Origin: Terriglobus albidus
Lineage (GTDB): Bacteria > Acidobacteriota > Terriglobia > Terriglobales > Acidobacteriaceae
Direction of reading: 5' to 3'
Length of the DNA: 64,000 nucleotides
Assembly (NCBI RefSeq): GCF_008000815.1
Contig: NZ_CP042806.1
Location: forward strand, 5,332,001-5,396,000
Numbering within the stretch: the first letter of the stretch is position 1; each line of letters begins with the position of its first letter. Position numbers and translations under genes: made by a program. Below are positions 6,437 to 52,514 of the stretch, piece after piece. The notes under the pieces are model-generated. The model saw nothing but the letters and a program-made list of their open reading frames with translations. It did no database searches and was not told the origin of the DNA.

Positions 6437-6548
6437 AGAGCATTTCTCCTGTTGCTGAGTATCCCGTGAGGAGCGTGCAGCGGCGTTTTCATTGAGGAAA
6501 ACGCCCATAGATACATAAGCCCCGCACTACACCTACAGGAGAAATGCT
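6437..6548 (+). repeat. Family A palindromic element (MITE-like), copy 1
   Basis: A 112-bp element with 12-bp perfect terminal inverted repeats (AGCATTTCTCCT / AGGAGAAATGCT) and a central hairpin GGCGTTTTC...GGAAAACGCC. It begins two bases after the devA stop codon and ends nine bases before the DUF2255 stop codon, so it sits between two convergent genes, where it may also help termination. Confidence 0.85.
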
Positions 6549-6557
6549 GTAGCCCGC

Positions 6558-6929
6558 TTACCGAGGCACGATCTTTATGGTTGCCGAACGGGCTTGCGCT
6601 GCAATCATCGGTTTCAGATAAGGGCTGGTGGCGTACTTCTCCCGATAGGCCTCATCGATCTGTTCCTGAATCGGCCCATCCACCGACTCGAAGGTGACCT
6701 CCTTCGTGATCCCTGCCACGCGGATGCGTCCTGCCTTCTGGAGTATCGCAGCCTGATACCAGGTCGAGGACTGTCCGTGATATCCGCGGACATACAGCCC
6801 GTGATCGACAACCACCGACCAGATCCATGTCGGCGTGCCGTACGTAACTCCATCTTCACGGAACGGCGAGATATGCAGATCGTCGGTTGCGGCGATGCAG
6901 TCCAGTTCGTTGTTCAACCATCGACTCAT
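6558..6929 (-). CDS. DUF2255 family protein
   Basis: A cytoplasmic protein of 123 residues matching DUF2255, a small family with a predicted flavin-reductase-like split-barrel fold and no established function. Recognisable pieces are LDCIAATDDLHISPFREDG, a conserved TPTWIWSVVVDHGLYVR core strand, and GQSSTWYQAAILQKAGRIRV. The ATG at 6929 is chosen because AGGAGG lies 7 bases upstream; the GTG two codons earlier is too close to it. That Shine-Dalgarno directly abuts a family A element (6943-7057). Without the element the gene would follow the tautomerase gene in an operon. A second element lies after its stop. Confidence 0.75.
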   Translation of the reverse strand: MSRWLNNELDCIAATDDLHISPFREDGVTYGTPTWIWSVVVDHGLYVRGYHGQSSTWYQAAILQKAGRIRVAGITKEVTFESVDGPIQEQIDEAYREKYATSPYLKPMIAAQARSATIKIVPR

Positions 6930-6942
6930 GGACACACCTCCT

Positions 6943-7057
6943 TAGAGCATTTCTCCTAATACTGTAGTGTTGGAAAAATCTGCGAATGCCGTTTTCTTCG
7001 CGGAAAACGGCGCAAACAGCCAAAACTCCGCTCTACACCTTTAGGAGAAATGCTCTA
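6943..7057 (+). repeat. Family A palindromic element, copy 2 (splits an operon)
   Basis: A 115-bp element with 17-bp perfect terminal repeats (TAGAGCATTTCTCCTAA and its complement) and a central GCCGTTTTC/GGAAAACGGC hairpin. Its right-hand TAG (7055-7057 on the minus strand) is the stop codon of the tautomerase gene. Its left end touches the DUF2255 Shine-Dalgarno. This subtype resembles copy 45016-45130 more than the others. Confidence 0.9.
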
Positions 7058-7285
7058 TTCCATCGTGTAGTCAGGCTTCTTGTAGAGCTGATCCCACTTC
7101 TGCTCAATCTCGGGATGATAGACCTTGCCCGCCCAGTCGAGCGGTGTAACCTCTTCCACGGCGACTGAGACCGACTCTGCACCGTAGTCGAGCACAGACA
7201 TGACACTATCGGTGATCTCCATCGCCAACTGCTCTTTTTGTTTTTCAGACTTACCGGGCCATAGCTTCACGACAACATGCGGCAT
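7055..7285 (-). CDS. 4-oxalocrotonate tautomerase family protein
   Basis: A 76-residue protein of the tautomerase superfamily. The catalytic amino-terminal proline follows the initiator ([11 protein letters not shown]), and [21 protein letters not shown] matches the family helix. Members act as cytoplasmic oligomers on enol/keto substrates; the substrate here is not predictable. The stop codon TAG is formed by the tip of a family A element, consistent with insertion of that element at the TA of an original stop codon. The downstream neighbour on the same strand is DUF2255. Confidence 0.85.
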
Positions 7286-7553
7286 AGAAGTTTCCTTTCC
7301 GATGCTTGGGTACGCGAGTTTTAGGTGGACTGAGGGTCATGCACCAGCAAACGTCCAGCGCCCGTACGCCGACCTCGCCATACTGCAAGCAGCCATTGCC
7401 GTCGTTGAACGGCGCCAATGCGCAGAGCGAATGCCGCAACCCTCGTAGTTCAAGGTTACCCGGCGAACATCGATCTGCGCTTTCCTATTCCTGCGGACTC
7501 TTTGCCTGATTCTGTCTACTTTTTGATGTATGGACCGGATTCGTCGCTTCGCG

Positions 7554-8333
7554 TCAGAGAACAGCGCTTACGCCGCCATCGACATAGAGCACTTGTCCAT
7601 TGACGAAAGAGGATGCTTCAGAGGCAAGGAACAAAGCGGCACCAATCAACTCCTCCGGCCGTCCCCAGCGATGAGATGGGGTCCGCTGCAACAGCCAGTT
7701 GTTGAATGCTTCATCCTCTTTCAGCGCCCGCGTCATCTCGGTGAGAAAGTAGCCAGGTGCAATCCCATTAATCTGTATATCGAATCGTGCCCAATCGGCG
7801 CACATCGCCTGCGTGAGCATCTTCAGGCCTCCTTTGGAGGCGGTATAAGGGCCTGTGGTGGGACGTCCAAAGCCACTCATCAGAGAACAGATGTTAATGA
7901 TCTTTCCGCCGCGACCGCTCGATAACATTCGCTGGACGACCTCGCGGGCGACCAGAAAGGCACTTGTCAGATTGGTGTGGAGGACGTCATTCCACAATTC
8001 CAGGGGCGTCTCATGCAGAGCAGCGCGGCGCTGAATGCCGGCGTTGTTGACGAGTACATCGATGGGTTGAATCCTGTCGATGGCTTCTTGAACCGCACCC
8101 TCATCCAACACGTCAAACGCTGCAACCTCGGGATGGAATCCTGCATGGATAAACTCTTGCTGAACCTCGTGGAGGGAATCTTCCGAACGGCCATTCAGAA
8201 TCACGACCGACCCCGCCCGCAGAAAGCCCTCCGCTAATGTCTTGCCCAGGCCGCGGCTCGAGCCGGTAATCAAAACACGTTTTCCAGCGACGTTGAATAG
8301 ATCCATTTTGTTCATGAAACCAGGCTCATTCAT
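7554..8333 (-). CDS. idnO: SDR oxidoreductase, gluconate 5-dehydrogenase (IdnO)-like
   Basis: A classical short-chain dehydrogenase of 259 residues. It has the Rossmann motif TGSSRGLGKTLAEGF near residue 24, NNAGIQRR, a catalytic serine in NICSLMSGF, the YTASKGG triad and the APGYFLTEMT loop. Overall spacing fits IdnO/Ga5DH, which interconverts 5-keto-gluconate and gluconate. Its ATG overlaps the TGA of the idnD-like gene (ATGA), so translation is coupled. With the upstream idnD-like and MFS genes it makes a sugar-acid catabolic operon. Conversion to 6-phosphogluconate would need a gluconate kinase, which is not in this window. Confidence 0.8.
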   Translation of the reverse strand: MNEPGFMNKMDLFNVAGKRVLITGSSRGLGKTLAEGFLRAGSVVILNGRSEDSLHEVQQEFIHAGFHPEVAAFDVLDEGAVQEAIDRIQPIDVLVNNAGIQRRAALHETPLELWNDVLHTNLTSAFLVAREVVQRMLSSGRGGKIINICSLMSGFGRPTTGPYTASKGGLKMLTQAMCADWARFDIQINGIAPGYFLTEMTRALKEDEAFNNWLLQRTPSHRWGRPEELIGAALFLASEASSFVNGQVLYVDGGVSAVL

Positions 8334-9349
8334 GGAACCAGACTCACCTTAATCGCACGTCTGCGGTCAGACGCCAGCTCGAATGCATCGCGTGAGTGCT
8401 CGAGCGGAACTTCAGCAGTAAGAATTGGCGATAGATCGATACGCTGCGATTCAAGCAGAGCAACGGCCATTCGGTACTCCTCGTAGAACCGGAAGCTTCC
8501 CACAAGTTCAATCTCCCGCGTGACAAGTATCGGCAACCGAAGCGGCTCCGTTGTGGCTGCCGGCAAAGATCCGAGTTGGACCACCCGGCCGCCGGGACGG
8601 ACATGCAGCAAGCATGTTGTGAGAGCCGCGATGGCTCCCGCGGCTTCGATCGCAACATCAAAACCATCCTCCATCAACCGCTCCCGGATGATATTGACGA
8701 CGTTGGAGGCGCCGAACAGTTGTGCCTTTGAGAGAGGCTCGTCCAATTGATCGGTGACGGTCACCTCAAACGCGCCGGCAAGCCTCGCACATAGAATCGT
8801 CAACAGACCGATCGGACCTGCACCTGTAATCAGAACCCGCTTGCCGACCAGATTGCCGGCACGACGGACGGCATGAAGCGAAACAGCGAGCGGCTCCGCG
8901 CAGGCAGCCACAGAGAATCGCAGTTGGTCACTGATCGGCACGCACTGTGATTCTTCAGCGACGAAAATCTCGGAGAACGCTCCATCCACATGCGGGAAAC
9001 GGGCGGCACTTCCATAGAACCTGACATCCGTACATAGGTTCGCCCGGCCGGAAAGACATTCACGACACGCGAGGCAGGGACGTGCGGGGTTCACGGCCAC
9101 ACGGGCGCCCACTTGTAACTCCGTCACACCGTCCCCGACAGCAACTACCGTTCCTGCGACTTCGTGTCCTAACACCATCGGCTGCCGAACCTCGAAACTG
9201 CCGACCCGGCCGTCGTGAAAATAGTGGAGATCCGATCCGCAGATGCCGCCTGCGCCGAGCCGTACAGCTACCTGCGACTTCTGCACCTCTGGAATACTTC
9301 GCTCCTCAACTCTCAAGTCAAGCGGACCATGGATCACGCAAGCACGCAT
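8330..9349 (-). CDS. idnD: Zinc alcohol dehydrogenase, L-idonate 5-dehydrogenase-like
   Basis: A medium-chain dehydrogenase of 339 residues. Catalytic zinc ligands are seen in GGICGSDLHYFHDG and LGHEVAG. The structural-zinc loop RPCLACRECLSGRANLC has four cysteines, and the NAD(P) fold has GAGPIGLL. The block SDLHYFHDGRVGSFEVRQPM is characteristic of IdnD/sorbitol-dehydrogenase-like enzymes that oxidise L-idonate to 5-ketogluconate. ATG at 9349 is preferred (GGAGG 6 bases upstream) over a GTG one codon earlier. The 5' end overlaps the MFS gene by 32 bp and the 3' end overlaps idnO as ATGA, so the three genes are one transcript. Confidence 0.82.
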   Translation of the reverse strand: MRACVIHGPLDLRVEERSIPEVQKSQVAVRLGAGGICGSDLHYFHDGRVGSFEVRQPMVLGHEVAGTVVAVGDGVTELQVGARVAVNPARPCLACRECLSGRANLCTDVRFYGSAARFPHVDGAFSEIFVAEESQCVPISDQLRFSVAACAEPLAVSLHAVRRAGNLVGKRVLITGAGPIGLLTILCARLAGAFEVTVTDQLDEPLSKAQLFGASNVVNIIRERLMEDGFDVAIEAAGAIAALTTCLLHVRPGGRVVQLGSLPAATTEPLRLPILVTREIELVGSFRFYEEYRMAVALLESQRIDLSPILTAEVPLEHSRDAFELASDRRRAIKVSLVP

Positions 9350-10622
9350 CACTTACCTCCCCTGTTCGCTCTTGTTCCCAGACCACCGGGCGATCGTCAA
9401 TACCGAACCAATAGGCCGCCGCCCCGATCAAAAGCACCGTGCTGGCAATGAAGAAGGCAGCGGAAAAACTCGCAGTACGCGACAGGACAACGCCGGTGAT
9501 CCAGGCTGCCAGTGTGGCCGAAGCATTCGCGAAAAGATTCTGCAGGCTCGTCCATTTTGCGGCTGCATCTTCGCCAGAGAGAGCCTGCGCCAGTGCCCAG
9601 TTATTCGACGAGAATAGACCGAGACAAAAGCTGGCGCCAAGAACGAGCAGAAGCCTCAGAGTAACTGGATGCACCTGGGCGGCAGCCAGCAAACAGGCAG
9701 CACAACCGATCGAGCCGAGACATACAGTCGCTTTTCTGACACGAATCGGGAGCGAACCCGACCGTATCAGACGATCTGAAACGTATCCGCTCCCTACAGA
9801 AGCGACGGTCAGAAGCCAGAACGGCATGGAGCTCATCCATACCAGTTGCTTGCCTGAGAATCCCGAATGCTCGACGAAATATGGCAGCCACACGACAAAC
9901 AGACTCCAGGCGTAGTTGCCTCCGATGTGGCCAACAGTAGCTCCCCAGAATGAGCCTTTCGAGGCGATCTGCCGATATGCCAGAGAGCGGGAGAAGGCGC
10001 TGGGAGAGGCGACTACATCAAGCGAGCGTGTGCTCATAAGCCAGACAGGAAGCCATACCAGGCTTAGCGCCCCGAGCCATAAGAACATCCCTCTCCAGCC
10101 GATCGCCAATAAAACTGTCGTACCGAGCATGATGCCGAGCGCCGGCCCGATCTTTGATCCCGCGTCGATCAGGCTGTTTGCCGTGCCCCGCAGGCCTTCC
10201 GGAAATAAACTTGTGATCAAAACCGCGGTCGCCGGATATGAGATTGATTCGCCACAGCCGAGTAAGAGTCTCATGCCGAACAGAACATAAAAGCTGCTGA
10301 TCGATACGCCGAAAACATGAATGTCGTGCGTGAAACCAGTAAACGCAGTCGCACAAGACCATACAAAGAATGCTCCCGCGTAGAGAGTGATGGCGTTCAT
10401 ACGCGCCAGCAGCTTGCCGGCAACGAGTTGCATGACGGTATAGGTCATGAAAAATGCTGAGGCAAGAACCCCCAATTGGGACTCGTCCAGGTGCAGTTCG
10501 CGTTTGATGCTCACCAATGCGATCGATAATGTGCCTCGATCGACAAAGCTTATTCCCATTGCAAACGTCAGCAGATAGAGAACCCGCCAACAGGTTTTCG
10601 AGGGTGAGCTTATTCCGGGCAC
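9318..10622 (-). CDS. MFS transporter of the sugar-acid operon (ACS family)
   Basis: A twelve-helix carrier of about 434 residues. LYLLTFAMGISFVDRGTLSIALVSIKREL is the ACS-type first helix and loop, and FFMTYTVMQLVAGKLLARM the second helix. Position at the head of an idnD-idnO operon suggests uptake of idonate, ketogluconate or a related acid; classical idn operons use a GntP-type permease instead. Start choice matters: GTG at 10622 has AAGGA seven bases upstream and leaves the whole 35-bp palindrome outside the gene. A TTG at 10655 would add 11 residues encoded by the palindrome itself. Confidence 0.8.
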   Translation of the reverse strand: MPGISSPSKTCWRVLYLLTFAMGISFVDRGTLSIALVSIKRELHLDESQLGVLASAFFMTYTVMQLVAGKLLARMNAITLYAGAFFVWSCATAFTGFTHDIHVFGVSISSFYVLFGMRLLLGCGESISYPATAVLITSLFPEGLRGTANSLIDAGSKIGPALGIMLGTTVLLAIGWRGMFLWLGALSLVWLPVWLMSTRSLDVVASPSAFSRSLAYRQIASKGSFWGATVGHIGGNYAWSLFVVWLPYFVEHSGFSGKQLVWMSSMPFWLLTVASVGSGYVSDRLIRSGSLPIRVRKATVCLGSIGCAACLLAAAQVHPVTLRLLLVLGASFCLGLFSSNNWALAQALSGEDAAAKWTSLQNLFANASATLAAWITGVVLSRTASFSAAFFIASTVLLIGAAAYWFGIDDRPVVWEQERTGEVSDACLRDPWSA

Positions 10623-10631
10623 AACTGATTC

Positions 10632-10666
10632 CTTCGGCACAATTGGTTCATCCAATTGTGCCGAAG
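10632..10666. promoter_or_regulatory. Perfect 15-bp inverted repeat, candidate GntR operator
   Basis: CTTCGGCACAATTGG, five-base spacer TTCAT, then the exact complement. The core AATTGG-N5-CCAATT resembles operators of FCD-type GntR regulators such as UxuR/ExuR (known consensus around TTGGTATACCAA). It lies 10 bp upstream of the likely MFS start and touches the -10 box of the predicted promoter, so a bound repressor would block initiation. The GntR gene is adjacent. Confidence 0.75.
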
Positions 10667-10694
10667 TCTATCCAAGCGTTCGCAGCAGTGTCAA
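10665..10694 (-). promoter_or_regulatory. Sigma-70-type promoter of the MFS-idnD-idnO operon
   Basis: On the minus strand a perfect TTGACA (10694-10689) is followed after 18 bases by TAGACT (10670-10665, four of six matches to TATAAT). It sits in the 45-77 bp gap between the GntR stop codon and the operon start, and its -10 abuts the 35-bp palindrome. Confidence 0.65.
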
Positions 10695-10699
10695 ATGAT

Positions 10700-11419
10700 T
10701 TATTTCCGGGACGCGCGGCTGCGCCGCTTGCGAAGCATCACGAACCGGGCGTTTGCATCCTCGAGATGCTCGCGCATAATCGAGCGCGCCGCCTCCGGGT
10801 CGTGCGCACGAATCGCACTCGCAATCCGTTCATGAAAATGAAGAGGGCGCTCAAGCTCGATACCGGAGAGGCTCATCATGGAATCCATGGTGACGCGATG
10901 CAGACGCTTGAAAAGGATCTGACAGATCCTGTCGCCACTTGCTCTGTAAACCGCATCGTGAAAACTGAGGTCGGCCAGGACTCGCTCCGTGGAGGAGGTA
11001 CTGGAGCGCAGGTCTTCGATGGCCCGCGCCAGAGCTCCGATATCCCCGGAATCCGCACGTTCCGCGGCACGAGCCGCGAGCTCCGGCTCCATCAGGATCC
11101 GGGTCTGAAAGAGCTCCTCGCCGCGAATGTCCTCCAGCAGTAAAAGGAACTCTATTGGTTCATCCAATATATTTTCAGCGGTCAGGCTTAAGTACGTACC
11201 ATCGCCAACGCGCTGGGTAAGGATACCCATCGTTTCTAGAACCTTCAATACCTGCCTTACCGAAGCGCGATTGACACCGAACTCCTCAGCCAGCTCCCGT
11301 TCGGTTGCAAGCCGTTCCCCTGGGCGAAGTCTTCCGTCGGCGATCCGTGACTTTAGATCGGTAATGATTCTTGATGTCACGCGATCGTCTTTTACCGAGG
11401 GCCCAGCCTTATCTCTCAT
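10700..11419 (-). CDS. FadR-type GntR transcriptional regulator of the sugar-acid operon
   Basis: A 239-residue regulator. The N-terminal winged helix (about residues 15-75) contains LRPGERLATERELAEEFGVNR and ASVRQVLKVLE. The C-terminal FCD ligand domain (about 95-225) has helices LADLSFHDAVYRASG and HERIASAIRAHDPEAARSIM. The FCD metal/acid-binding histidine and aspartate pattern is present (D-x3-H type in LSFHDAVY). It lies immediately upstream, on the same strand, of the MFS-idnD-idnO genes, and most likely represses them until a sugar acid binds. It contains within its own coding sequence a second copy of the operator core (11154-11168). Confidence 0.85.
   Translation of the reverse strand: MRDKAGPSVKDDRVTSRIITDLKSRIADGRLRPGERLATERELAEEFGVNRASVRQVLKVLETMGILTQRVGDGTYLSLTAENILDEPIEFLLLLEDIRGEELFQTRILMEPELAARAAERADSGDIGALARAIEDLRSSTSSTERVLADLSFHDAVYRASGDRICQILFKRLHRVTMDSMMSLSGIELERPLHFHERIASAIRAHDPEAARSIMREHLEDANARFVMLRKRRSRASRK
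11154..11168. promoter_or_regulatory. Second copy of the operator core inside the GntR gene
   Basis: ATTGGTTCATCCAAT is identical over 15 bases to the core of the palindrome at 10632-10666, including its asymmetric five-base spacer. Here it encodes LDEPIE of the regulator, about a third of the way into the gene. It may be an auxiliary or roadblock operator for autoregulation, or chance; identical spacer sequence argues against chance. Confidence 0.5.
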
Positions 11420-11517
11420 GCCAAGCAGTATGACCGATCGATTGGCAGCTTTCCAAGCGTAGCGCTCTGAGCTTCCAATCTGACCGCTCCGCCAGTACCG
11501 CGCCGCTCAGGCTTCCC

Positions 11518-12141
11518 TCACGCTTCCAGGATGCCCCGCTTCAACGCGATGAGCACGGCATGGGTACGATCGTTGGCCTGCAGCTTCGCGAGCACATTCT
11601 TCATGTGGCCCTTCACCGTATCCTCAGAGATGCTGAGGCGGTCGGCGACGATCTTGTTCGAACAGCCAGAGGCGACCGCCTGCAGCACCTGGAGCTCGCG
11701 TGTGGAGAGCGACTCCGAGCCGAGATGCTCTGCCATGCCGTGAGCAATCTCATCCGAGATGCGTTTGCGTCCCTGATGTGCCGCACGGATGGTGTCGATC
11801 AGCTCGGTGCCGAGCATGCTCTTCAGGATGAAGCCCATGGCGCCGGCCTGCAGGGCGCGGGTTGCGTGCACATCACCGGAGTAGGTTGTCAGCACGACGA
11901 TGCGCGCCTTGGGAAACTCTTCCCGGATCGCCTGAATCGCCTCGATGCCGTTCATGACAGGCATCTGCAGATCCATCAGCGTGACATCCGGACGGTGCTT
12001 TCGGTACGCGGCCACGGCCTCGACTCCGTTCGTCGCTTCGGCCACAAGCTCCATGTCAGGCGCCTTCTGCATGATGAAGGCAATACCATCCCTCATCAAA
12101 GGATGGTCATCGACAGTGAGTACACGGATCGGGGAGTTCAT
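11518..12141 (-). CDS. NarL/FixJ-family response regulator (orphan)
   Basis: A 207-residue two-domain response regulator. The receiver domain shows the acidic pair DD at 11-12, phospho-acceptor D57 in LMDLQMP, T85-type threonine in VVLTTYSG, and lysine in FILKSM. The C-terminal LuxR helix-turn-helix has LSTRELQVLQAVASGCSNKIVADRL and VKGHMKNVLAKL. No sensor kinase is encoded next to it, so its partner is elsewhere. It shares strand with the GntR gene 98 bp downstream but probably has its own promoter. Confidence 0.88.
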   Translation of the reverse strand: MNSPIRVLTVDDHPLMRDGIAFIMQKAPDMELVAEATNGVEAVAAYRKHRPDVTLMDLQMPVMNGIEAIQAIREEFPKARIVVLTTYSGDVHATRALQAGAMGFILKSMLGTELIDTIRAAHQGRKRISDEIAHGMAEHLGSESLSTRELQVLQAVASGCSNKIVADRLSISEDTVKGHMKNVLAKLQANDRTHAVLIALKRGILEA

Positions 12142-12479
12142 AAGCAGCCCTCCCTGGGGGGATATAGCAGTAGAGAAACGATATCACCGGCGACGCCCCC
12201 TCGCACCACCCCCGAAAGGGTTGGTGGTCCTGGGAAATCCGCTTGCCACCAGAATGCTGGCTTCGAGCCCTGGTTTTTTGTTTGTCATTTCGGAGCGCCA
12301 GCGGAGAAATCTGCTTTTCTCCCGATGTTTCTTAGCAGCCACTGAAAAGCAGATCCCTCCGGGATGACAAAACAAACGCGGTCGCGCCTGGCGCAATACC
12401 CTACCCTTCGCGATAAAGCCGAGAAGTGAGGCAACGAAAGTGGTGGCTTAACCGAATTTGTCGATTCGCCTGGGCAAGG
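12142..12479. repeat. Intergenic region with an imperfect long inverted repeat (family E)
   Basis: No gene is seen. Positions about 12276-12376 form an interrupted inverted repeat. TTTGTTTGTCATTTCGGA on the left pairs imperfectly with TCCGGGATGACAAAACAAA on the right, and inside it ATCTGCTTTTC pairs with GAAAAGCAGAT. Such elements are frequent in acidobacterial genomes; this one could fold as a cruciform or terminator. The rest appears unstructured. Confidence 0.55.
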
Positions 12480-13856: not shown

Positions 13857-14320
13857 GCAGCCCCCTTGATTGCGGTAACCACCAGCGCGATGGCGAGAGC
13901 GTCTTCCAGCAGCGCCGCGCCGATCGCGGACTTCGTCACTTCTGTCAGCTTTTCCCGCAGCCATGCGCCGCCGTAGGTTCCAGCAACAGCTCCAAGGATA
14001 CCCAGAATCACGCCATAACCGAGCACGCTGTGGGCCGCACCAGCGGTTCCGCCGGCCAGGGCGCCCATCACGATGCGGGCAATGAACTGCGGCGGCACCT
14101 TGCGGCTCGGCGTCTTTGGCAGCTTATCGTTGATCAGCTCGGCGATGGCAAGCACGGTGAAAATCAGTACCGTCCACTTCGATGCCATGAAAGCGAGTGA
14201 TGTTCCGGCTACGGTAAGCATCCCCAGATGCGCTGCCCAGCTTGCGCCCGCCGGGGACGTTAGGGCACGCAGCCCAGAGACAAAACCAAATAGAAAAAGG
14301 ACGACGATCAGCATCGGCAC
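13853..14320 (-). CDS. DUF4126 family membrane protein
   Basis: A 155-residue inner-membrane protein with four to five hydrophobic segments (about 3-20, 28-62, 80-112, 135-152). It contains the family-like block ELINDKLPKTPSRKVPPQF followed by a glycine-rich helix GALAGGTAGAAHSVLGYGV. Function is unknown. It is translationally coupled to the flavin oxidoreductase gene that follows (ATGA overlap), so the two products may cooperate, for example in membrane redox chemistry. A truncated near-copy of its central part occurs at 18102-18362. Confidence 0.75.
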   Translation of the reverse strand: MPMLIVVLFLFGFVSGLRALTSPAGASWAAHLGMLTVAGTSLAFMASKWTVLIFTVLAIAELINDKLPKTPSRKVPPQFIARIVMGALAGGTAGAAHSVLGYGVILGILGAVAGTYGGAWLREKLTEVTKSAIGAALLEDALAIALVVTAIKGAA

Positions 14321-14621
14321 ACCCTCCAGATTTCGTTCAATTCAGGATGAGAGACAGGAGCCCAGCGCCTTCCAAGCTACTCGCACAGAAGGTTCCGGGA
14401 AAGCCCCTTTAGGAAAGGAAGGAATGCCACACTTTGGAGTCGGCGAAATAATCTCTTACAAACGCCCGCGATATGCTTAATTGGCATCCATTTATTTCTA
14501 GGGCTTGTTCGAACGGATCGCACAGCCCCATTTCACTATCTGCAGCTTGGTCTTGCCCGCCGGGGACTCGGCTGCCCAACACGGCAACGCGTTCAGGGTT
14601 CATGTTTCAAACATGTCGCAT
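14321..14621. other. Divergent intergenic region, no gene seen
   Basis: Roughly 300 bp between the DUF4126 gene (leftward) and the PIG-L-like gene (rightward), which should contain both promoters. An A/T-rich stretch lies around 14440-14500. No repeat of families A-E and no convincing ORF were found. Confidence 0.4.
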
Positions 14622-17062: not shown

Positions 17063-17178
17063 TAGAGCATTTTTCCTGTGGGTGTCGTGCAGGGCTTCTG
17101 CACCTATGAGCGTTTTCCGCAATGAAAACGCCGCTACACGCCTCTTTCGGGATACCCAGCAACATGGAAAATGCTCTA
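17063..17178 (-). repeat. Family A palindromic element, copy 3
   Basis: A 116-bp element, TAGAGCATTTTTCCTGT ... CATGGAAAATGCTCTA, with central GCGTTTTC...GAAAACGC hairpin. It is the reverse orientation of copies at 6437 and 51018. It separates the AraC gene from the YCII gene on the minus strand. Confidence 0.88.
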
Positions 17179-18101: not shown

Positions 18102-18362
18102 CACTTCGATCAGCTTTGCCCGCAGCCATGCGCCGCCGTAGGTTCCGGCAACAGCTCCAAGGATACCCAGAACCACGCCATAACCGAGCACGCTGTGCGC
18201 CGCACCGGCGGTTCCGCCGGCCAGGGCGCCCATCAGGATGCGAGCAATGAACTGCGGCGGCACTTTGCGGCTCGGTGTCTTCGGCAGCTTATCGTTAATC
18301 AGCTCACCGATGGCAAGCACAGTGAAAATCAACGCAGTCCATTTCGATCCCACGAAGGCAAG
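18102..18362 (-). pseudogene. Truncated duplicate of the DUF4126 gene
   Basis: About 260 bp closely similar, base by base, to 13938-14189. The translated piece runs from KWTALIFTVLAIGELINDKL to AVAGTYGGAWLRAKL and then loses similarity. Both the N-terminal about 45 and the C-terminal about 30 residues of the parent are missing, so it cannot make the protein. It now forms the upstream region of the AraC gene. Confidence 0.75.
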
Positions 18363-25795: not shown

Positions 25796-26026
25796 CGGTA
25801 CCTCAGTGGCTAAAGCCACGCCTGCTCTTGGTTCAGTACGGCATGGCTGAAGCCATGCCCTTAAGCAAGACGGAGCGCCTTTGGCGCCTTTCCATACTGA
25901 AGCCATCTCCTTAAGCAACATAAGCACATCTCCTTCGCGCAACGCGCGAATGCCGTGCTTAAGGGCACAGCTTTAGCTGTGCCGTGTGAAGCCGGAACAG
26001 GTGCGGCTTTAGCCGCTGCGGTACCG
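25796..26026. repeat. Family B compound palindromic element, copy 1
   Basis: About 230 bp bounded by CGGTACC ... GGTACCG and composed of several small palindromes. These include GGCTAAAGCC, GGCATGGCTGAAGCCATGCC followed by CTTAAGCAAGAC, GGCGCCTTTGGCGCC, GGCACAGCTTTAGCTGTGCC and GCGGCTTTAGCCGC. The rest of the nagA-PepSY gap (26027-26225) contains no gene that I can support. Confidence 0.7.
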
Positions 26027-26705: not shown

Positions 26706-27037
26706 TAGAGCGTTTCCCTGTTACTAGTGTCGTGAGTCTAAAGTTCGTGAAAAATCATGAAGAGCTCTAGTGTTTCAGCGAGCGCTCTTCGCACCGCAGG
26801 TGCGAATGTCTTGCTTAAGGGGACGGCTTTAGCCGTCCCGTCCCTCGCACTGAAATACATGCGGCTTTAGCCGCTGAGGTACCGAAGCTATGCCCTCAGC
26901 GGCTAAAGCCGCGTCTCAGTGGAGGCCCATACGGCACGGCTGAAAGCCGTGCCCTTAAGCAAGACAAGGCGCCTTTGGCGCTTCCGGTCCGCATAAATGC
27001 GGACGCCCTACACTACACCCACAGGGAAAATGTTCTA
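26706..27037. repeat. Family A element interrupted by a family B element
   Basis: TAGAGCGTTTCCCTGTTAC at the left and CACAGGGAAAATGTTCTA at the right match the two ends of family A, but lie 330 bp apart because a family B element (about 26776-26985) occupies the middle. The right-hand TAG is the stop codon of the outer-membrane protein gene at 27035. Confidence 0.7.
26776..26985. repeat. Family B compound palindromic element, copy 2 (nested)
   Basis: Contains GCACCGCAGGTGC, CTTGCTTAAGGGGACGG with GACGGCTTTAGCCGTC, GCGGCTTTAGCCGCTGAGGTACC, its inverted partner CTCAGCGGCTAAAGCCGC, and GGCACGGCTGAAAGCCGTGCC with CTTAAGCAAGAC. The left and right halves are inverted relative to each other, giving a large potential cruciform. 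Confidence 0.7.
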
Positions 27038-27856
27038 TTCAATCTCAGGATGCTTGCCCCAGGAGAAACGCCGTCCAATAATTCCTTTGACGATCAGGTG
27101 GTCTGTGGCCGAAGTCGCTCCCAGACCAACACCGAAGTTAATCTCCCATTGCTGAGAGACATTCAGGTCACTTACCGCGAAGATCTGTTGTTGTTGATTG
27201 TGCAGGGTGTCGAAAGCGCCAAACCGCCCATAGTCGGCGTAGTACTCAACACCAGCGCTGATCGTGCGGGTGAAGTCGTAACTCGCTTTCACCCCTGGGG
27301 CAAAGCCAAGCCCCTGGTTGACGTCCGGACCATGCCAGGTGCGCTCTAAGGCCGGATTTACAGAGAAATACCAGCGGCCGAATGACTTATCAATGATGGG
27401 CCGTATCTCCCAGGTCCAGGTGTCCGGCGAATACATTGCCCGCTGGTATCCCACCTCAGTGGAGATGCTCACTCCGACAGGCCAATGCCAACTATCGGGC
27501 ACGCGCACGCGCGGCCGGATGTGATCGCCGACCCACTGCAGACCATGTCCCTCCTGCTCGCTGGTGAAGATATAGAAGCCCACTTCGGACCAGTTGTTGA
27601 TGCCCTGCGTGATCTCGATGGTTTCGTGTTGTTGATGATTGGTCGGGTACACGCCGTCGATCAGGTACCGCTGCCCCTTCGCGGTGAAATTGGAGTGCAG
27701 CTCCACCATGGTTGTCTTCGGCAAGACCGTATCCGACCCGTAGACCTGAATCTCGTAGTTCCCTTGCGCATACGCCCTTGGCGCCAGCCATCCAGCCAGG
27801 GTAAGCACCAGGCTCCACAACGCCACATAGCAGCAACGTCCGATCAGATTACGCAT
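27035..27856 (-). CDS. Putative outer-membrane beta-barrel protein after the multicopper oxidase
   Basis: A 273-residue exported protein (signal peptide about 1-31, cleaving after APRAYAQ). Alternating amphipathic strands rich in aromatic residues (NWSEVGFYIFTSEQEGHGLQW, VGVSISTEVGYQRAMYSPDTW, WYFSVNPALERTW, TISAGVEYYADYGRF) suggest a small outer-membrane barrel, comparable to uncharacterised 'transporter-like' barrels. Its start overlaps the multicopper oxidase stop by 8 bp, so they are coupled. The present stop TAG belongs to a family A element. Bridging the element at its TA would continue the frame through YALQRY to a TAA, giving a C-terminal aromatic residue. Confidence 0.6.
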   Translation of the reverse strand: MRNLIGRCCYVALWSLVLTLAGWLAPRAYAQGNYEIQVYGSDTVLPKTTMVELHSNFTAKGQRYLIDGVYPTNHQQHETIEITQGINNWSEVGFYIFTSEQEGHGLQWVGDHIRPRVRVPDSWHWPVGVSISTEVGYQRAMYSPDTWTWEIRPIIDKSFGRWYFSVNPALERTWHGPDVNQGLGFAPGVKASYDFTRTISAGVEYYADYGRFGAFDTLHNQQQQIFAVSDLNVSQQWEINFGVGLGATSATDHLIVKGIIGRRFSWGKHPEIE

Positions 27857-41287: not shown

Positions 41288-41468
41288 GGGTGGGAGCAGC
41301 GGGCTTCAGCCCGCTGATTGGAGGCAATAAAACGATGGGCTTTAGCCCTGGGCCTTCTCGAACTTTGAAAACAAAGCCCAGGGCTAAAGCCCGACTTCTC
41401 TTGTATCCAGTAAACCGTGGGCTAAAAGCCCACGGCTCCCACCCGGTTCGAGCTACGCTCGAATAGTT
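41288..41468. repeat. Family C palindromic element, copy 1
   Basis: Bounded by GGGTGGGAGC...GCTCCCACCC. Inside are CGGGCTTCAGCCCG, GGGCTTTAGCCCTGGGC with its inverted partner GCCCAGGGCTAAAGCCC, and GTGGGCTAAAAGCCCAC; then TTCGAGCTACGCTCGAA. The whole unit can fold into a long cruciform. Confidence 0.7.
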
Positions 41469-41473
41469 GACCT

Positions 41474-41541
41474 CTCCGAACAATGTTCGCCGGGGACCCC
41501 GAATATCCCACCCATCGCTATCGCGATGGATGGGGCACCCA
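41474..41541. repeat. Family D element adjoining family C
   Basis: GAACAATGTTCGCCGGGG followed by CCATCGCTATCGCGATGG and GGGGCACCC. Similar GTTCGCCGG and GGGTGCCC pieces follow the second family C copy (51470-51532), so C and D travel together. The rest of 41201-41690 contains no gene. Confidence 0.55.
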
Positions 41542-42410: not shown

Positions 42411-42657
42411 CGCTTCGCGCCGCAGGTGCGAATGCCTTGCTTAAGGGGACGGCTTTTAGCCGTCCCGCACAGGCTCCGCCAAATCGCGGCTTTAGCCGCT
42501 GAGGTAACGCTCGCGCAAAGTTCGACCATTAGAGCCATTCAGTTAGAAACTTTAAACACGTATTAGAAGTTGAAAATGTACCTCAGCGGCTAAAGCCGCG
42601 CTCTTACTGCTGTCTATACGGCACGGCTTAAGCCGTGCCCTTAAGCAAGGCAAGAGC
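42411..42657. repeat. Family B compound palindromic element, copy 3
   Basis: CGCAGGTGCGAATGCCTTGCTTAAGG with GACGGCTTTTAGCCGTC and GCGGCTTTAGCCGCTGAGGTA at the left. The inverted TACCTCAGCGGCTAAAGCCGC, then GGCACGGCTTAAGCCGTGCC and CTTAAGCAAGGC, are at the right. An A/T-rich spacer of about 75 bp (42505-42580) lies between the arms. The rest of 42225-42718 contains no supported gene. Confidence 0.7.
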
Positions 42658-44871: not shown

Positions 44872-45015
44872 TGTCACGGGAGATACTGACGCCAGACCCC
44901 TACCGTAACCCAGAAAATGTTTCATTTCTGTAAACGCTCGGGGTGTGCCCTCAACCTCAGGACTTTTTTATGACTGCCTGACGGTCGATTCAACTTAGCC
45001 CTTCATGCTTCTCTC

Positions 45016-45130
45016 TAGAGCAATTCTCCTAATCCTGTAGCGTTGGATAAATCTGCGAATGCCGTTTTCTTCGAGGGAAAACGGCGCATACAGCCAAAAC
45101 TCCGCTCTACACCTTTAGGAGAACTGCTTA
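45016..45130 (+). repeat. Family A palindromic element, copy 5
   Basis: TAGAGCAATTCTCCTAA ... TTAGGAGAACTGCTTA with central GCCGTTTTCTTCGAGGGAAAACGGC; same subtype as the copy at 6943-7057 but with decayed ends. It lies in the 349-bp divergent gap between the response regulator and the TonB receptor, so may separate or modify their promoters. Confidence 0.85.
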
Positions 45131-45220
45131 TCCGCTGCCACTGGCTGACGCACCAAGTCTGCTGCACTTGCAGGCATGCGGAATTCCTTTGCCTGAAGAG
45201 GCATTTTGAGGAGGGGCTGT

Positions 45221-48199: not shown

Positions 48200-48208
48200 G
48201 AGAAGACG

Positions 48209-49477
48209 TTGTCCTCATCGAAGTTCCTTCTATTGACCATCGTCAGTGGTCTGCTCGCTTCCGGGCAGGCCGCTGACGCCGTTACGCGCAAGCCAGGCCA
48301 TCCCATGGACGAACAACTCGTCATGACAGTCGTCCTGTCGCGGCATGGTGTGCGTTCTCCTACGTGGGCTCCGGAACGTCTAAACCGTTACTCTGCTACT
48401 CCCTGGCCCACGTGGCAGGCACAACCCGGCTATCTGACGGATCGCGGCTTCCAGCTCCTGGAACGCTTCGGCAGCTATAACCGTGCCGCATTGGCACAAC
48501 ACGGCCTGTTGTCGTCTGAAGGATGCAGCGATGCGTCGTCTGTCTATATCTGGGCCGATACCGATCAGCGCACCCTTGAGAGCGGCAAGGCTCTCGCCAA
48601 GGGTCTGTTTCCTGCATGTCCGCCTGAGGTCCATTCACAGCCCGGCGGAGGCAACGACCCTATCTTTCACGCTCGTGACACGGCACCAACCGCGCGGCAG
48701 ACCCAGCAGATACAACAGGACCTTCAAGCCAGAATTCCCGCCGCGATGGCAAAGGCCGATCCGCTGATCGATGAGATGCAACAGATCCTGCAGGGCTGTA
48801 AGCCCGGCGTCGCCTGCACACCGGCTCGCAAGCCGGAACACCTGCTGCGCGAGAGTGCGACGGCAGTCTCTCCGGGTCGCGGCGACCGGGCGGTCGATCT
48901 TCTCGGCCCGCTGCCGCTGGCTTCATCCTTCTCCGAAGACCTTTTGCTGGAGTACGCCGACGACATGCCGGAGCAGCAGCTCGGCTGGGGCAATGCCGGC
49001 TCCTCTGAGGTGAAACACATCCTCGACCTGCACACCATCTACTTCGACCTGATCCACCGCACGCCGTCGATGGCGCAGCTTGAAGCCACCAGCATGCTGC
49101 GTCACATCGCGATGACGCTCTCGCAGCGCGCCACCGGTACACCATCGCCGGATGCCGTCGGCCCTGGCGATGCGAAGGTTGTCTACTTCGTCGGGCATGA
49201 TACCAATCTGGCCGGCGTCGCCTCGCTGCTGGGAGTCCACTGGAAGCTGGATGGCCGCGACGATGACACGCCGCCGGGAACTCAGCTCGCCTTCCAGCTA
49301 TGGCGAGTCGGCCACCGCTATGAGATCCGCATTCAGGTCGCCATGCAGACGCTCGAGCAGATGCGTCATCTGGAACAACTTACGCTCACCTCGCCGCCTG
49401 CTCGACAGGAGCTGACAGTGCCCACCTGCGCGCCGCAGCAATGCAATGTGGAGCAGTTTGTCTCGCTCCACCCGTAG
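48209..49477 (+). CDS. Secreted histidine acid phosphatase (phytase/AppA-like)
   Basis: A 422-residue exported phosphomonoesterase of histidine acid phosphatase branch 2. The catalytic motif RHGVRSP has its nucleophile at H46 and the second-half proton donor HD in FVGHDTNLAGVA near residue 330. SRHGVRSPTWAPERLNRYS and LTDRGFQLLERFGSYNR resemble AppA/Agp enzymes, which release phosphate from sugar phosphates or phytate. The signal peptide is about 1-21. Translation appears to start at TTG 48209, preceded by AGGAGA, nine bases after the receptor stop, so receptor and phosphatase are one transcript. True phytase versus glucose-1-phosphatase cannot be decided. Confidence 0.86.
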   Translation: MSSSKFLLLTIVSGLLASGQAADAVTRKPGHPMDEQLVMTVVLSRHGVRSPTWAPERLNRYSATPWPTWQAQPGYLTDRGFQLLERFGSYNRAALAQHGLLSSEGCSDASSVYIWADTDQRTLESGKALAKGLFPACPPEVHSQPGGGNDPIFHARDTAPTARQTQQIQQDLQARIPAAMAKADPLIDEMQQILQGCKPGVACTPARKPEHLLRESATAVSPGRGDRAVDLLGPLPLASSFSEDLLLEYADDMPEQQLGWGNAGSSEVKHILDLHTIYFDLIHRTPSMAQLEATSMLRHIAMTLSQRATGTPSPDAVGPGDAKVVYFVGHDTNLAGVASLLGVHWKLDGRDDDTPPGTQLAFQLWRVGHRYEIRIQVAMQTLEQMRHLEQLTLTSPPARQELTVPTCAPQQCNVEQFVSLHP

Positions 49478-49552
49478 AGCGCTCAGGACTTCCCATTTCT
49501 CCAAGACAATCGAGTCCTCCCGGCGCTACGCTGGTGTGCGGGAGGGATATAT

Positions 49553-50041
49553 ATGGCAAGTCAATACAAAGGTGTTCCCGAGGGAGCCTCAGCCATTATC
49601 CCGAGGCTCTACTGTAGCGACGTTGAGACAGAGATCGAGTTCTGTTGCGACGTGCTTGGCGCAGTCGAAGGCGTCCGTCGGCCAGGCCCTGACGGGCGGG
49701 CACAGCATGCGATGTTGCTATTCGGCTCAGCGATGCTCATGATTGAGGGCGAAAACCCGGAGGTTCCAACTCGCCCCCCAAATCCTGACGGAAGCTCTCC
49801 CGTTGTCATCTATCTTTACGTGGAAGATGTCGACACGACTGTTGAACGGGCACTAAAGCGCGGCTGCAGGCTTGTGGTACCGGTAGAAACGCATTTCTGG
49901 GGAGACCGGATTGGATGGGTTCAGGATCCGGCCGGGCATATGTGGACAATCGCGACACGCGTTGAGCAGACAACGGAAGATCAGCGCCGTGAGCGTTGGT
50001 CGACGATCTTGTCTGGAGACGCGAGTACACCAAATCCCTGA
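49553..50041 (+). CDS. VOC-fold (glyoxalase/PhnB-like) protein
   Basis: A 162-residue cytoplasmic protein with the two beta-alpha-beta-beta-beta modules of the vicinal oxygen chelate superfamily. The first is AIIPRLYCSDVETEIEFCCDVLGA...AMLLFGSAMLMIEGE; the second PVVIYLYVEDVDTTVERALKRGCRLVVPV...DRIGWVQDPAGHMWTIATR. PRLYCSDVETEIEFCCDVLGA is typical of PhnB-like members; a metal-ligand His is visible in AGHMWTIA. Activity unknown. A good Shine-Dalgarno (GGAGGG) lies upstream. Monocistronic. Confidence 0.82.
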   Translation: MASQYKGVPEGASAIIPRLYCSDVETEIEFCCDVLGAVEGVRRPGPDGRAQHAMLLFGSAMLMIEGENPEVPTRPPNPDGSSPVVIYLYVEDVDTTVERALKRGCRLVVPVETHFWGDRIGWVQDPAGHMWTIATRVEQTTEDQRRERWSTILSGDASTPNP

Positions 50042-50108
50042 TAAGAATCCCGTGACGTTCATCGTGTCCGGCAATTCTCTAAGTTAGGAGAAACGGGAGA
50101 AGGTCCAT

Positions 50109-50223
50109 CGAGCATTTTTCCTGTAGGTGTAGTGTAGGACTTCCGCACCCATGGGCGTTTTTCGCAATGAAAACGCCGCGGCACACCCCTTCCGGGATAC
50201 CCAGCAACAGGGAAAATGCTCTA
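50109..50223 (-). repeat. Family A palindromic element, copy 6
   Basis: GAGCATTTTTCCTGTAGG ... CAGGGAAAATGCTCTA with central GGCGTTTTTCGCAATGAAAACGCC; reverse orientation of copies 1 and 7. It ends eight bases before the SDR start codon. Confidence 0.85.
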
Positions 50224-50231
50224 ATCATCGG

Positions 50232-51020
50232 ATGAGATCGCTTCAAGGCAGAGTCGCTGTTGTTACAGGTGGCACGAAAGGCGTTGGACGCGGAATCGCT
50301 GCTGAACTCGCTGCCCAAGGGGCGCGAGTATTCGTGACAGGCCGATCCATCAGAGAAGGGCCTCACGACGAAACGAAGATCGTGGGCATTCGATGTGATC
50401 ACAGAGACGATCGGGAGGTTGTGAACGCCTTCGAACGAGTCGCCACAGAAAGCAGCGCCATCGATGTCCTGGTGAACAATGTCTGGGGCGGCTACGAGCA
50501 GATGATGGAAGGTGGCGTGTTTACCTGGAGCAAGCCATTCTGGGAGCAGCCAATCTGGCGCTGGGATGCGATGTTCGCCGCTGGTGTGCGCGCCCACTAT
50601 TTTGCGAGTCAACTTGCGGCCCGATCGATGGTGGCTCGCCAAAGTGGACTGATCGTGAATCTATCGTTCTGGTCTGCACAGAAGCGCATTGGCAACGTCG
50701 CATACGGCGTATCAAAAGCTGCCACGGACAAAATGACCGCGGACATGGCGGAGGAACTTAGGTCATATGGCGTCGCCGTCGTGTCTCTTTACCCCGGTAT
50801 GGTCAGAACAGAAAAGGTGATGGAAGCTGCGGCGTGGCTGGATCTCAGCAACTCGGAATCCCCGGAATTTATTGGACGCGCAATCAGCGCGCTTGCCGCC
50901 GATCAAGACGTTATGAGACACACGGGAAAAGTACTTGTGGCGGCTCAATTAGGAATTGACTACGGATTCTCCGACATCGATGGCAAAACTCCACGTCCGC
51001 TCAAACTCGACGAGGTCTAG
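50232..51020 (+). CDS. SDR-family oxidoreductase bracketed by two repeat elements
   Basis: A 262-residue short-chain dehydrogenase: TGGTKGVGRGIAAEL coenzyme motif (TGxxxGxG), NNVWGG in place of NNAG, catalytic serine in NLSFWSAQ, and YGVSKAA. An SDR subgroup with the W-rich segment WEQPIWRWDAMFAAGVRAHYFAS after the coenzyme region. The ATG at 50232 has no good Shine-Dalgarno, and the region just upstream is a family A element. In-frame codons upstream are only the element's translated arm. The stop TAG (51018-51020) is the tip of another, inverted element. It may use upstream leader sequence for initiation or be poorly translated. Confidence 0.78.
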   Translation: MRSLQGRVAVVTGGTKGVGRGIAAELAAQGARVFVTGRSIREGPHDETKIVGIRCDHRDDREVVNAFERVATESSAIDVLVNNVWGGYEQMMEGGVFTWSKPFWEQPIWRWDAMFAAGVRAHYFASQLAARSMVARQSGLIVNLSFWSAQKRIGNVAYGVSKAATDKMTADMAEELRSYGVAVVSLYPGMVRTEKVMEAAAWLDLSNSESPEFIGRAISALAADQDVMRHTGKVLVAAQLGIDYGFSDIDGKTPRPLKLDEV

Positions 51021-51132
51021 AGCATTTCACTGTTGCTGGGTATTCCGAAAGAAGAGTGCAGCGGCGTTTTCATTGCGGAAAACGCCCATGGATACGGAAG
51101 CCCTACATTGCACCCGCAGGGAAAATGCTCTA
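51018..51132 (+). repeat. Family A palindromic element, copy 7
   Basis: TAGAGCATTTCACTGTTGC ... CGCAGGGAAAATGCTCTA with central GGCGTTTTCATTGCGGAAAACGCC. Its first TAG is the SDR stop codon. Excision with one TA would leave GTC-TAG, the same stop. Confidence 0.88.
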
Positions 51133-51250
51133 GAGTCCTGCGTCACTAATTCGCTAAAAATATTTGGCGAGAGCGTTGAGGATGTCGTCGGCGGATTTGG
51201 TCCTGGCGAAGGCGGTTGAGCCATCGTAGACGGACTTCATCTAACTTAAC

Positions 51251-51532
51251 GGGTGGGAGCAGCGGGGTCCCCGGCCAGCTTCGCTGGCTGGGGTGCTCAG
51301 CGGGCTTCAGCCCGCTGATAAAGCACAAAAGTAAATGGGCTTTAGCCCTGGGCCTTTTCCGGAAGGATAGAAAAAGACCCGGGGCTAAAGCCCGTTTCTT
51401 ATAGAGCCAGCAAAACGCGGGCTGAAGCCCGCGTCTCCCACCCGTTTCGAGCTCCGCTCGAAGAGTTCACCCCGGCGAACCAAGTTCGCCGGCATACTAA
51501 ATGGATGGCACCTACGCATGGGTGCCCGAGGT
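51251..51532. repeat. Family C plus D palindromic element, copy 2
   Basis: GGGTGGGAGCAGCGGG ... TCCCACCC (51251-51442), containing GCCAGCTTCGCTGGC, CGGGCTTCAGCCCG, GGGCTTTAGCCCTGGGCC and GGGGCTAAAGCCC plus CGGGCTGAAGCCCG; then TTCGAGCTCCGCTCGAA and the D-like GTTCGCCGG / GGGTGCCC. No gene is seen in 51133-51564. Confidence 0.65.
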
Positions 51533-51564
51533 TACACTCGAAGACGCATCGTCTTGAACCTGAC

Positions 51565-51855
51565 TCACAAGTGAAGCAGGTACACCGGAGCCAGCGCAGC
51601 AAGCGCAGCTGCCATCTGCAGGGCAATGACCTTCAGGGACTCTCTGGGCGCGCGGGGGAACCATGTGACGGCGAAGAAGAGGAGCAGCGGCACCTGCCCA
51701 GCCATGAGCAGTTGCCAGATGTGGGCGGCTGTCCCTTCGTCTTTGTCATGCGGAACCCCGAAAATTGCGAGCGTAATCAGAACATCCGCCAGTGCAAGAA
51801 GCGACATCGCAATGGGAAGAAATGCGCTTGGCTTCCTCACGATCGTCGTAAACAT
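51565..51855 (-). CDS. Small three-helix membrane protein
   Basis: About 96 residues from ATG at 51855 (MFTTIVRKPSAFL...). Three hydrophobic helices: FLPIAMSLLALADVLITLAIFGV, IWQLLMAGQVPLLLFFAVTWF and VIALQMAAALAALAPVYLLHL. The reading frame stays open upstream for a further 13 codons but that part is highly charged. No family recognised. Follows the cupin gene on the same strand after about 140 bp. Confidence 0.55.
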   Translation of the reverse strand: MFTTIVRKPSAFLPIAMSLLALADVLITLAIFGVPHDKDEGTAAHIWQLLMAGQVPLLLFFAVTWFPRAPRESLKVIALQMAAALAALAPVYLLHL

Positions 51856-51994
51856 CCGGCACGGTCTCCGTTCCATATCGATCGATATCGACATATGTGG
51901 ACTTTGTTGTCAGGAAGCGCTGGCGGAGAGGAACTCTCGATGTTCCGCCAGCCGTCACCCGGGATCGGTCTGCCGGTGGCAAAGACGTTGCCGT

Positions 51995-52312
51995 TCAGGA
52001 TTTCAACTCGACTGCAATCACCTCAAAGGGTTCATCGCTCATATTTTCTGGAGCGTGTTGGATGCTGTCCAGGTATTGGACGTCTCCCGCGTTGCCCTGC
52101 ATGTTAAGAACCTCGCCATTCGCCAAGATATGACGGCTGTGATGAGGAGTTAGAAAGATACCTACGAGAGGCGGGTGGCTGTGCATGGGTGACTTTTCGT
52201 GGGGTCCATATCGAATCCGGAGCACTCTGACCTTTTCGTTCTCGAATTCCACCGTGTAATGCTCAGGATCGCAGGTGATTGGGTCGGCAGCCGTTACTGG
52301 TGACGTTGCCAT
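51995..52312 (-). CDS. Cupin domain protein
   Basis: A 105-residue cupin from ATG at 52312, fixed by AAGGAGG five bases upstream. Cupin motif 1 in KSPMHSHPPLVGIFLTPH (metal-binding His pair in HSH) and motif 2 in NAGDVQYLDSIQHAPENMSD with the second histidine. EHYTVEFENEKVRVLRIRYGPHEKSPMHSHP is typical of small cupins from soil bacteria. Catalytic role unknown. Cytoplasmic. A family A element lies 88 bp upstream. Confidence 0.82.
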   Translation of the reverse strand: MATSPVTAADPITCDPEHYTVEFENEKVRVLRIRYGPHEKSPMHSHPPLVGIFLTPHHSRHILANGEVLNMQGNAGDVQYLDSIQHAPENMSDEPFEVIAVELKS

Positions 52313-52399
52313 GGGAACCTCCTTTTGTGCGCGCCAGTATAGAGCGGTTCTCCATGCCCGCGATAGAAAAATCGGCGGCCGCAACTATCCGGCACGCGA

Positions 52400-52514
52400 T
52401 AGAGCATTTTCCCTGTGGGGCCGTGTAGGGCTTTCGCATCTATGGGCGTTTTCCGCAATGAAAACGCCGCTGCATGCCCCTTCCGGAATACCCAGTAACA
52501 GGGAAAATGCTCCA
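52400..52514 (-). repeat. Family A palindromic element, copy 8
   Basis: TAGAGCATTTTCCCTGTGG ... CAGGGAAAATGCTCCA with central GGCGTTTTCCGCAATGAAAACGCC. It begins ten bases after the stop codon of the DHFR-like gene and lies between it and the cupin gene on the minus strand. Confidence 0.88.

Follow-up and report, generated by a model that had tools for sequence, protein, structure and literature searches.

Several families of short repeats in bacteria resemble the one described here. RUP of the pneumococcus is a non-coding element of 107 bp with about 110 copies, TA termini and IS630-like ends, for which mobilisation in trans has been proposed in the pertinent sections of two papers (PMC3049150, PMC2229807). 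BOX of Streptococcus pneumoniae is modular and linked to the ends of ISSpn2; of 58 annotated genes overlapped by BOX, 36 obtain their stop codon from it at the very 3′ end, a count that the relevant section of the source gives without a test of excess over chance (PMC3049150). The Correia or NEMIS elements of Neisseria have 107- and 155-bp forms with TA inverted ends and RNA stem-loops; as summarised in the source, the longer form carries an IHF site and the shorter one is often fused into open reading frames (ORFs) (PMC2229807). Among autonomous elements, ISY100 inserts by cut-and-paste at TA, and the target is duplicated, according to the part of the source that treats it (PMC2170065). Here we describe a family of miniature inverted-repeat transposable elements (MITEs) which was found as eight palindromic elements in a 64,000-nucleotide stretch of the Terriglobus albidus contig NZ_CP042806.1 (positions 5,332,001 to 5,396,000; the window).

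The nearest known kind is RUP with IS630-Spn1, a short, non-coding, TA-ended element with IS630-like ends, where architecture and not sequence is compared. RUP density, however, peaks 50–150 bp from genes in the distribution reported (PMC3049150), whereas the Terriglobus MITE lies exactly at stop codons; moreover, a search of this genome at E<=1e-15 gave no matching transposase, and the central hairpin covaries across genera. Stop-codon supply is shared with BOX, the combination of length, TA inverted ends and stem-loops with Correia/NEMIS, and TA duplication with IS630 of Shigella and ISY100, which are autonomous elements and not MITEs (PMC2170065). The exact concentration at stop codons and a covarying central hairpin amid divergent arms go beyond a routine MITE. 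Among the titles listed in searches of open-licence literature, none reports a stop-codon-concentrated bacterial MITE or the present family. Transposons of compact genomes are usually taken as harmless by chance location. With a placement exactly at stops, in several genera and three to five times above null models, the family lends itself to a clean test of whether insertion can be directed to harmless sites, or whether placement to the single base can arise by selection alone. A few hundred copies per genome also provide many host genes with a TAG stop and with a stable structure at the 3′ end, a point relevant to annotation and expression work in Acidobacteriota.

We conclude, at a probability of roughly 85%, that these elements are IS630-derived MITEs which inserted at TA, preferably YTAR, and became concentrated at stop codons via a rebuilt TAG. 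The MITE would be a non-autonomous cut-and-paste element with two unlike IS630-group ends around a non-coding interior with the central hairpin. An IS630 transposase acting in trans would cut the ends and insert the element at TA, preferably YTAR, whereby TA is duplicated. Upon insertion into a TAA or TAG stop, TAG is rebuilt and the protein left unchanged because the element begins with G, as the sequences and the empty alleles at four sites show.

Copies, insertion sites and IS630 relatives

All eight elements proposed in the first-pass annotation were located by direct reading within 1–2 bp of the positions given there. Their length of ~115 bp including the flanking TAs holds for seven; the interrupted copy at 26706–27037 measures 332 bp instead. 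Two subtypes were confirmed by sorting, with five copies of subtype A and two of subtype B (Table 1), and both orientations by the four longest inverted pairs in the window, which align over 109–119 nt with 82–84% identity. TA on one or both flanks was equally borne out, with both ends flanked in six of eight copies and a single flank at 50109 and 52400. A strict end-pair pattern applied to the complete genome of the window (G000, a single contig of 6.4 Mb) matched 78 times on the forward and 79 times on the reverse strand, most copies being hit on both, and the reversed-pattern control gave no match; the eight elements are far beyond chance. Profile searches, in which the type B profile was built with competition between the A and B models, recovered 14 full-length copies (11 A, 3 B) from contiguous G000 sequence totalling 384 kb, and 12 from 213 kb of Terriglobus albidus DSM 26559 (G008). 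Extrapolated, this ~112-bp MITE family, whose members are too short to hold a transposase gene, has about 230 full-length copies in G000 and about 340 in G008.

A search with the copy at 17063 matched seven of 61 genomes. Many copies were present in four of them (G000, G008, G012 and G015), that is, in four of the 19 genomes of the Terriglobus-type genus, and G010, G017 and G022 gave one weak partial match each. Among the matches listed for a core pattern (80 of 120 stretches), sources were T. albidus DSM 26559 and three Acidobacteria metagenome-assembled genomes. The end pattern occurred in 31 of 398 genomes of the family, representing nine of 79 genera including the Terriglobus-type genus. 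Plasmid and phage collections searched with the type A copy at 17063 gave no match. Two tandem arrays of three MITE copies, in which neighbours share one TA, were observed in T. albidus (L203, 5898–6238; L204, 5273–5620); they carry the right-end variant ATGCGATTA instead of ATGCTCTA.

Syntenic stretches of G008 and G015 were compared with G000, and nine occupied/empty sites could be aligned. Two are clean (G000 87422 and G008 87875, region numbering): the element is flanked by TA at either end, and the empty allele has just one TA. Three deviate from this pattern by a single base (window 17063, G008 129729, and window 50109, whose left TA has become TC). Indels or mutation obscure the remaining four (G000 9325, window 6943, G008 117007 and G008 118102), among which G008 117007 can hardly be called empty. 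G000 and G015 have in common the copies at 17063 and region 87422, which are missing from G008, and the element at region position 77868 is present in both G000 and G008. Thus, TA is duplicated upon insertion, as expected from the proposal of a non-autonomous element inserting at TA; the check on empty sites suggested in the first-pass annotation, made at orthologous sites of G000 and G008, thereby turned out in its favour. Position at gene ends and stable folding would also suit non-mobile, conserved terminators or regulatory hairpins in fixed positions. This explanation, which is contradicted by the empty sites, has next to no probability: close relatives differ in presence and absence at TA sites, both orientations occur, and matching flanks were shared by only six pairs among 176 copies, one pair within G000, in loci that mostly do not overlap.

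Elements with matching ends were sought among IS630 transposons. The orfB product of an IS630 element of G015 matched 94 of 399 genomes of the class, and that of a second element (L239), at E<=1e-15, had matches in 60 of the family's 398 genomes; both query proteins are IS630 family transposases by NCBIfam NF033545 and DDE_3 by Pfam PF13358. TA-flanked inverted ends were sought in 61 loci, and 32 IS630 copies, including four duplicates, were accepted for target counting, many of which start with GAGC. The best matches to the MITE ends are four IS630 elements of ~1 kb from other Acidobacteriota genera (L239, L274, L275 and L276), whose ends read TA, GAGCATTTCTCCT and then a 'GGTGTA'-like motif at one end and a 'GCTGTA'-like motif at the other; in L276, GAGCATTTCTCCT differs by one base at each end. 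MITE types A and B likewise have one 'GGTGTA' and one 'GCTGTA' end each, and in L239 the 'GGTGTA' end lies upstream of orfA. The base following TA is A or G in 63 of the 64 strand readings of the 32 IS630 copies, and YTAR is the preferred target of this IS630 group and of the MITE. IS630 itself reportedly prefers CTAG (Tenzen and Ohtsubo, 1991, by its title). Hence, the IS630/mariner-type partner postulated earlier exists in other genera, with TA-flanked GAGCATTTYYCC ends, but a matching transposase was not found in the window's genome. As far as the search at E<=1e-15 reaches, the MITE would be an orphan in G000; past mobility does not presuppose a transposase still present there. The genome's own two IS630 copies were rejected as a source, as their ends differ (TTGCTTCCTG/TTGATTCCTG).

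Two other origins can be weighed against these ends. IS5 groups duplicating CTAG or YTAR exist, and the YTAR preference would accord with derivatives of an IS5-type element duplicating such 4 bp. We consider this very unlikely, since the clean empty sites show duplication of TA alone, and one PF13340 element and five inspected PF01609 loci (of 19 PF01609 hits) from the four carriers have other ends, without GAGC. High copy number and palindromic form, together with separate palindromes in the window that resemble repetitive extragenic palindromic (REP) sequences, recall REPs or bacterial interspersed mosaic elements (BIMEs) moved by a REP-associated tyrosine transposase (RAYT) of the Y1 type. 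RAYT-type REPs make no target-site duplication, whereas here TA is duplicated and the inverted ends match IS630, so that this origin is extremely improbable; no search aimed at RAYT genes was made.

Placement at stop codons

Gene ends were assigned by a simple gene caller, based on hexamers and trained with G000 sequence. The sample comprised 276 unique full-length, flanked copies from loci of the carrier genomes and from core-pattern stretches (40 of the latter of unlisted source); 176 with recognisable edges were counted, and the 100 without were left out of the main count. In 77 of the 176 copies, the TA coincides exactly with that of a called gene's stop codon, and the stop is read as TA plus the G of the element. 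TA is present on both sides in 104 copies, on one side in 62 and on neither in 10, with 61, 16 and 0 stop copies, respectively; retention of TA at stops inflates the both-sided set, and 77/176 is therefore the figure to use. After removal of copies with matching flanks, 74 of 170 distinct sites are at stops. The genes concerned have a median length of 981 bp (cut by locus edges), and five of 77 are below 300 bp. The 'GGTGTA' end adjoins the stop in 47 of the 74 distinct sites (p=0.027), a weak bias. In a set of MITEs from other genera (25 elements extracted from 27 loci of other genomes, L337–L363, of which L339, L355 and L357 gave none with a two-ended pattern), 11 of 25 are at stops.

For the window, the claim that three copies supply a TAG stop, at 7057, 27037 and 51018, was confirmed in each case. 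That six of the eight elements lie within 20 bp of a start or stop codon is correct in a mechanical ORF list (6437, 6943, 17063, 26706, 51018 and 52400), but holds only as far as the ORFs and start codons concerned are genuine.

Several observations bear on whether the stop existed before insertion. When the target is joined, A or G follows TA in 74 of 77 stop copies, in all 61 stop copies with both TAs, and in 71% of non-stop copies. Since YTAR is the target in any case, a third base A or G by itself says little about whether a stop was there before; support comes from the difference between 61/61 and 71% and from the empty alleles at four sites. For the gene ending at 51020, G008 lacks the element and has TAG at the corresponding codon; for the gene at 7055, the empty alleles are TAG in G008 and TAA in G015; and at region 87422 and G008 87875 they are TAA, with the frame taken from the occupied copy. 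Furthermore, in a set of 65 copies, a gene ended inside the element in another frame in two cases compared to 27 at the stop, and consequently the placement is not random truncation of gene ends.

The stop share was compared to null models. Stop TAs make up 7.3% of all intergenic-plus-stop TAs, or 10.6% when weighted by the base preference of the non-stop copies, and a logistic model including local GC expects 12.9%. When real elements were inserted in silico, 25 of 300 at random intergenic TAs and 47 of 300 at random YTAR sites were called 'at stop'. Even if all 100 dropped copies are taken as non-stop, 77/276 exceeds the YTAR rate (p=1.8e-7). Considering YTAR sites only, copies are distributed 45 at stops to 42 elsewhere, and available sites 69 to 326. 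Within 60 bp past a stop, 61 of 75 copies lie exactly at it (0.378 expected). Stop codons are thus enriched about three- to five-fold over the null models, and target sequence accounts for at most about a third of the excess. In convergent gaps, 29 of 39 copies are at a stop (0.122 expected), and 19 of 21 with intact YTAR (0.149 expected); in co-directional gaps, the figures are 45 of 98 (0.085 expected) and 24 of 50 (0.206 expected). The 28 copies in divergent gaps have no stop available. Operon polarity as a cause of the placement was ruled out, because the excess is strongest in convergent gaps.

Central hairpin and cause of the stop excess

Conservation of the hairpin was measured on 75 type A copies which had not been selected by their core. 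The non-consensus rate is 1.6–2.0% in the stem, 6.6% in the loop and 13–14% in the arms; the 5–6% of the ends is biased low, as many copies were found by their ends. Variants confined to a single copy amount to 0.56 per site in the stem, 0.79 in the arms and 0.63 in the ends, and variants shared by copies to 0.33, 1.41 and 0.33, respectively. Constraint would apply to spreading copies, not to every copy once resident, and the hairpin probably aids propagation, since it is kept in lineages that spread.

The 25 MITEs from other genera are 103–116 bp long, with arms that are A-like, B-like or unrecognisable by eye. Sixteen of them have a perfect stem of 7 bp or more that lies no further than 3 bp from the centre, compared to 21 of 10,000 shuffled interiors; the other nine mostly have an imperfect or shorter stem, and L356 and L363 have no comparable hairpin. 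The stems themselves differ (GGCGTTTTC, GCCGTTTT, GGCTTTTC, TGCAGCTTTTC, GCTGTTTTTC and GCGGCTTTT, each with its complement). Covariation was assessed in an alignment of 20 elements, namely 18 of the 25 and types A and B of the window; L345, L347, the second copy in L350, L352, L354, L356 and L363 were left out, and L341 and L359 were oriented by eye against the script. In this alignment, 80.9% of the cells pair, and 24 cells have both-sided pair changes; shuffles give 11.0 +/- 2.3 (none of 500 reaches 24) and slid versions 2–8. Related sequences are counted repeatedly here, and independent events may be fewer than the cells suggest. The numbers of pairs with a both-sided change (5) and of further pair types (15) are not clearly above shuffles, of which 208 and 39 of 500 reach them. 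The central hairpin is thus mostly kept in related MITEs of other genera, with a covarying stem. Its maintenance by paired changes amid changing surroundings suggests that the ends alone are not enough for a bacterial MITE. Of 11 IS630 elements checked, 10 showed no perfect stem of 8 bp or longer with a loop of 4–8, and that of the remaining one (L215) is a different stem.

Covariation was also seen outside the hairpin: columns 9–10 and 107–108 of alignment A1 show that the ends of one copy change together (TTTTCCC with GGGAAAA, TTTCTCC with GGAGAAA), which indicates two matched end types within one family. In one copy (L307, G000:C1:1975606-1975717), the same arm type flanks the hairpin on both sides, suggesting recombination through the central palindrome.

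The earlier suggestion that elements are tolerated at stops because their G regenerates TAG was made from three copies and extends to the 77 of 176 copies with a rebuilt TAG, but does not by itself explain why stops are favoured over other harmless intergenic TAs. Either insertion favours translated DNA and only stop hits survive, or selection keeps the copies at stops. We prefer the former, in which insertion would be more frequent in translated than in untranslated intergenic DNA; nearly all coding insertions would be purged, and the stop codon would be the one translated TA where insertion is harmless. A more far-reaching version, which we regard as rather unlikely, would couple insertion to translation, with DNA under translation reached far more easily than untranslated DNA, a GAGC end tuned to rebuild TAG, stop codons serving as genome-wide safe harbours, and the covarying hairpin acting as a cis element for the coupling or for spread.

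Selection after insertion is possible, at somewhat less than even odds. Any YTAR could be hit, and copies at stops would be kept as 3′-end structures (as terminator or for mRNA protection), or all others would be slightly harmful. In favour of this, the hairpin formed by the MITE is very stable and has the stop codon within its outer stem. IS630 copies, expected to reflect the raw choice of target, are at stops in only six of 28 cases, and this low share, on few copies, speaks for selection and against pure targeting by the transposase. On the other hand, convergent gaps contain neither promoters nor downstream genes, yet they show the highest stop share; an insertion 10–50 bp further on should be equally harmless or useful, but is rare; and there is no trend with copy divergence.

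The conclusion that IS630-derived MITEs were concentrated at stops via a rebuilt TAG has to be set against several results, among them the low stop share of IS630 copies just mentioned (7 of 32 before removal of duplicates; both flanking genes were called for only 17, of which five are at stops). The unchanged stop share with copy divergence separates neither targeting nor fast selection. A transposase of the matching group was not found in G000, G008 or G012 at E<=1e-15, with eight of the ten first-look candidates of G000 scored. The IS630 element of G015 (L215) was rejected as a direct source; it has TA-flanked GAGCA ends but a different subterminal sequence, and is kin only. Median pairwise identity of type A copies is 84%, and recent mobility is not demonstrated by the divergence data. 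Finally, the contrast of private and shared variants between stem and arms is borderline (p=0.056). Nevertheless, the interpretation given in the first-pass annotation is supported as largely right.

Elements and other repeats of the window

Table 1. MITE copies in the window (strand + has the GGTGTA-type end at the left)
Positions	Strand	Description
6436–6551	-	Type A, full length, TA both sides
6943–7057	-	Type B, TA both sides; right TA plus G is the TAG stop of gene 7055–7285 (-)
17063–17178	+	Type A; occupied in G015, empty in G008
26706–27037	-	Type A ends, 332 bp, with other palindromic repeats in place of the centre; TAG stop of gene 27035–27856 (-) supplied by the right end
45016–45130	-	Type B, TA both sides
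50108–50223	+	Type A, left TA now TC; G008 empty there, single TA
51018–51132	-	Type A; left TA plus G forms the TAG that terminates the gene ending at 51020 (+)
52400–52514	+	Type A, right TA now CA

The genes ending in an element presumably encode a tautomerase (7055–7285), a barrel protein (27035–27856) and an SDR (gene ending at 51020), labels taken over unconfirmed from the first-pass annotation. According to the crude gene caller, a gene at 6558–6917 (-) ends ~6 bp from the copy at 6437. An Rfam search of the window gave no match at gathering thresholds.

Separate REP-like palindromic repeats of a GGACGGCTTTAGCCGTCC type and a GGGCTTCAGCCCGC type occur in the window at 25931–25974, 26787–26830 and 42413–42456, and at 41288–41513 and 51248–51446. 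One such array supplants the centre of the MITE at 26706. Four DDE_Tnp_1 elements of G000 and G012 (L219, L233, L220 and L223) have inverted arms starting with REP-like motifs, e.g., CAGCGGGCTGAAGCC...GGCTGAAGCCCGCTG, as if they had inserted into, or carried, REP hairpins. Besides these, a direct repeat of 261 nt with 90% identity (13937–14197 and 18102–18362) overlaps predicted ORFs.

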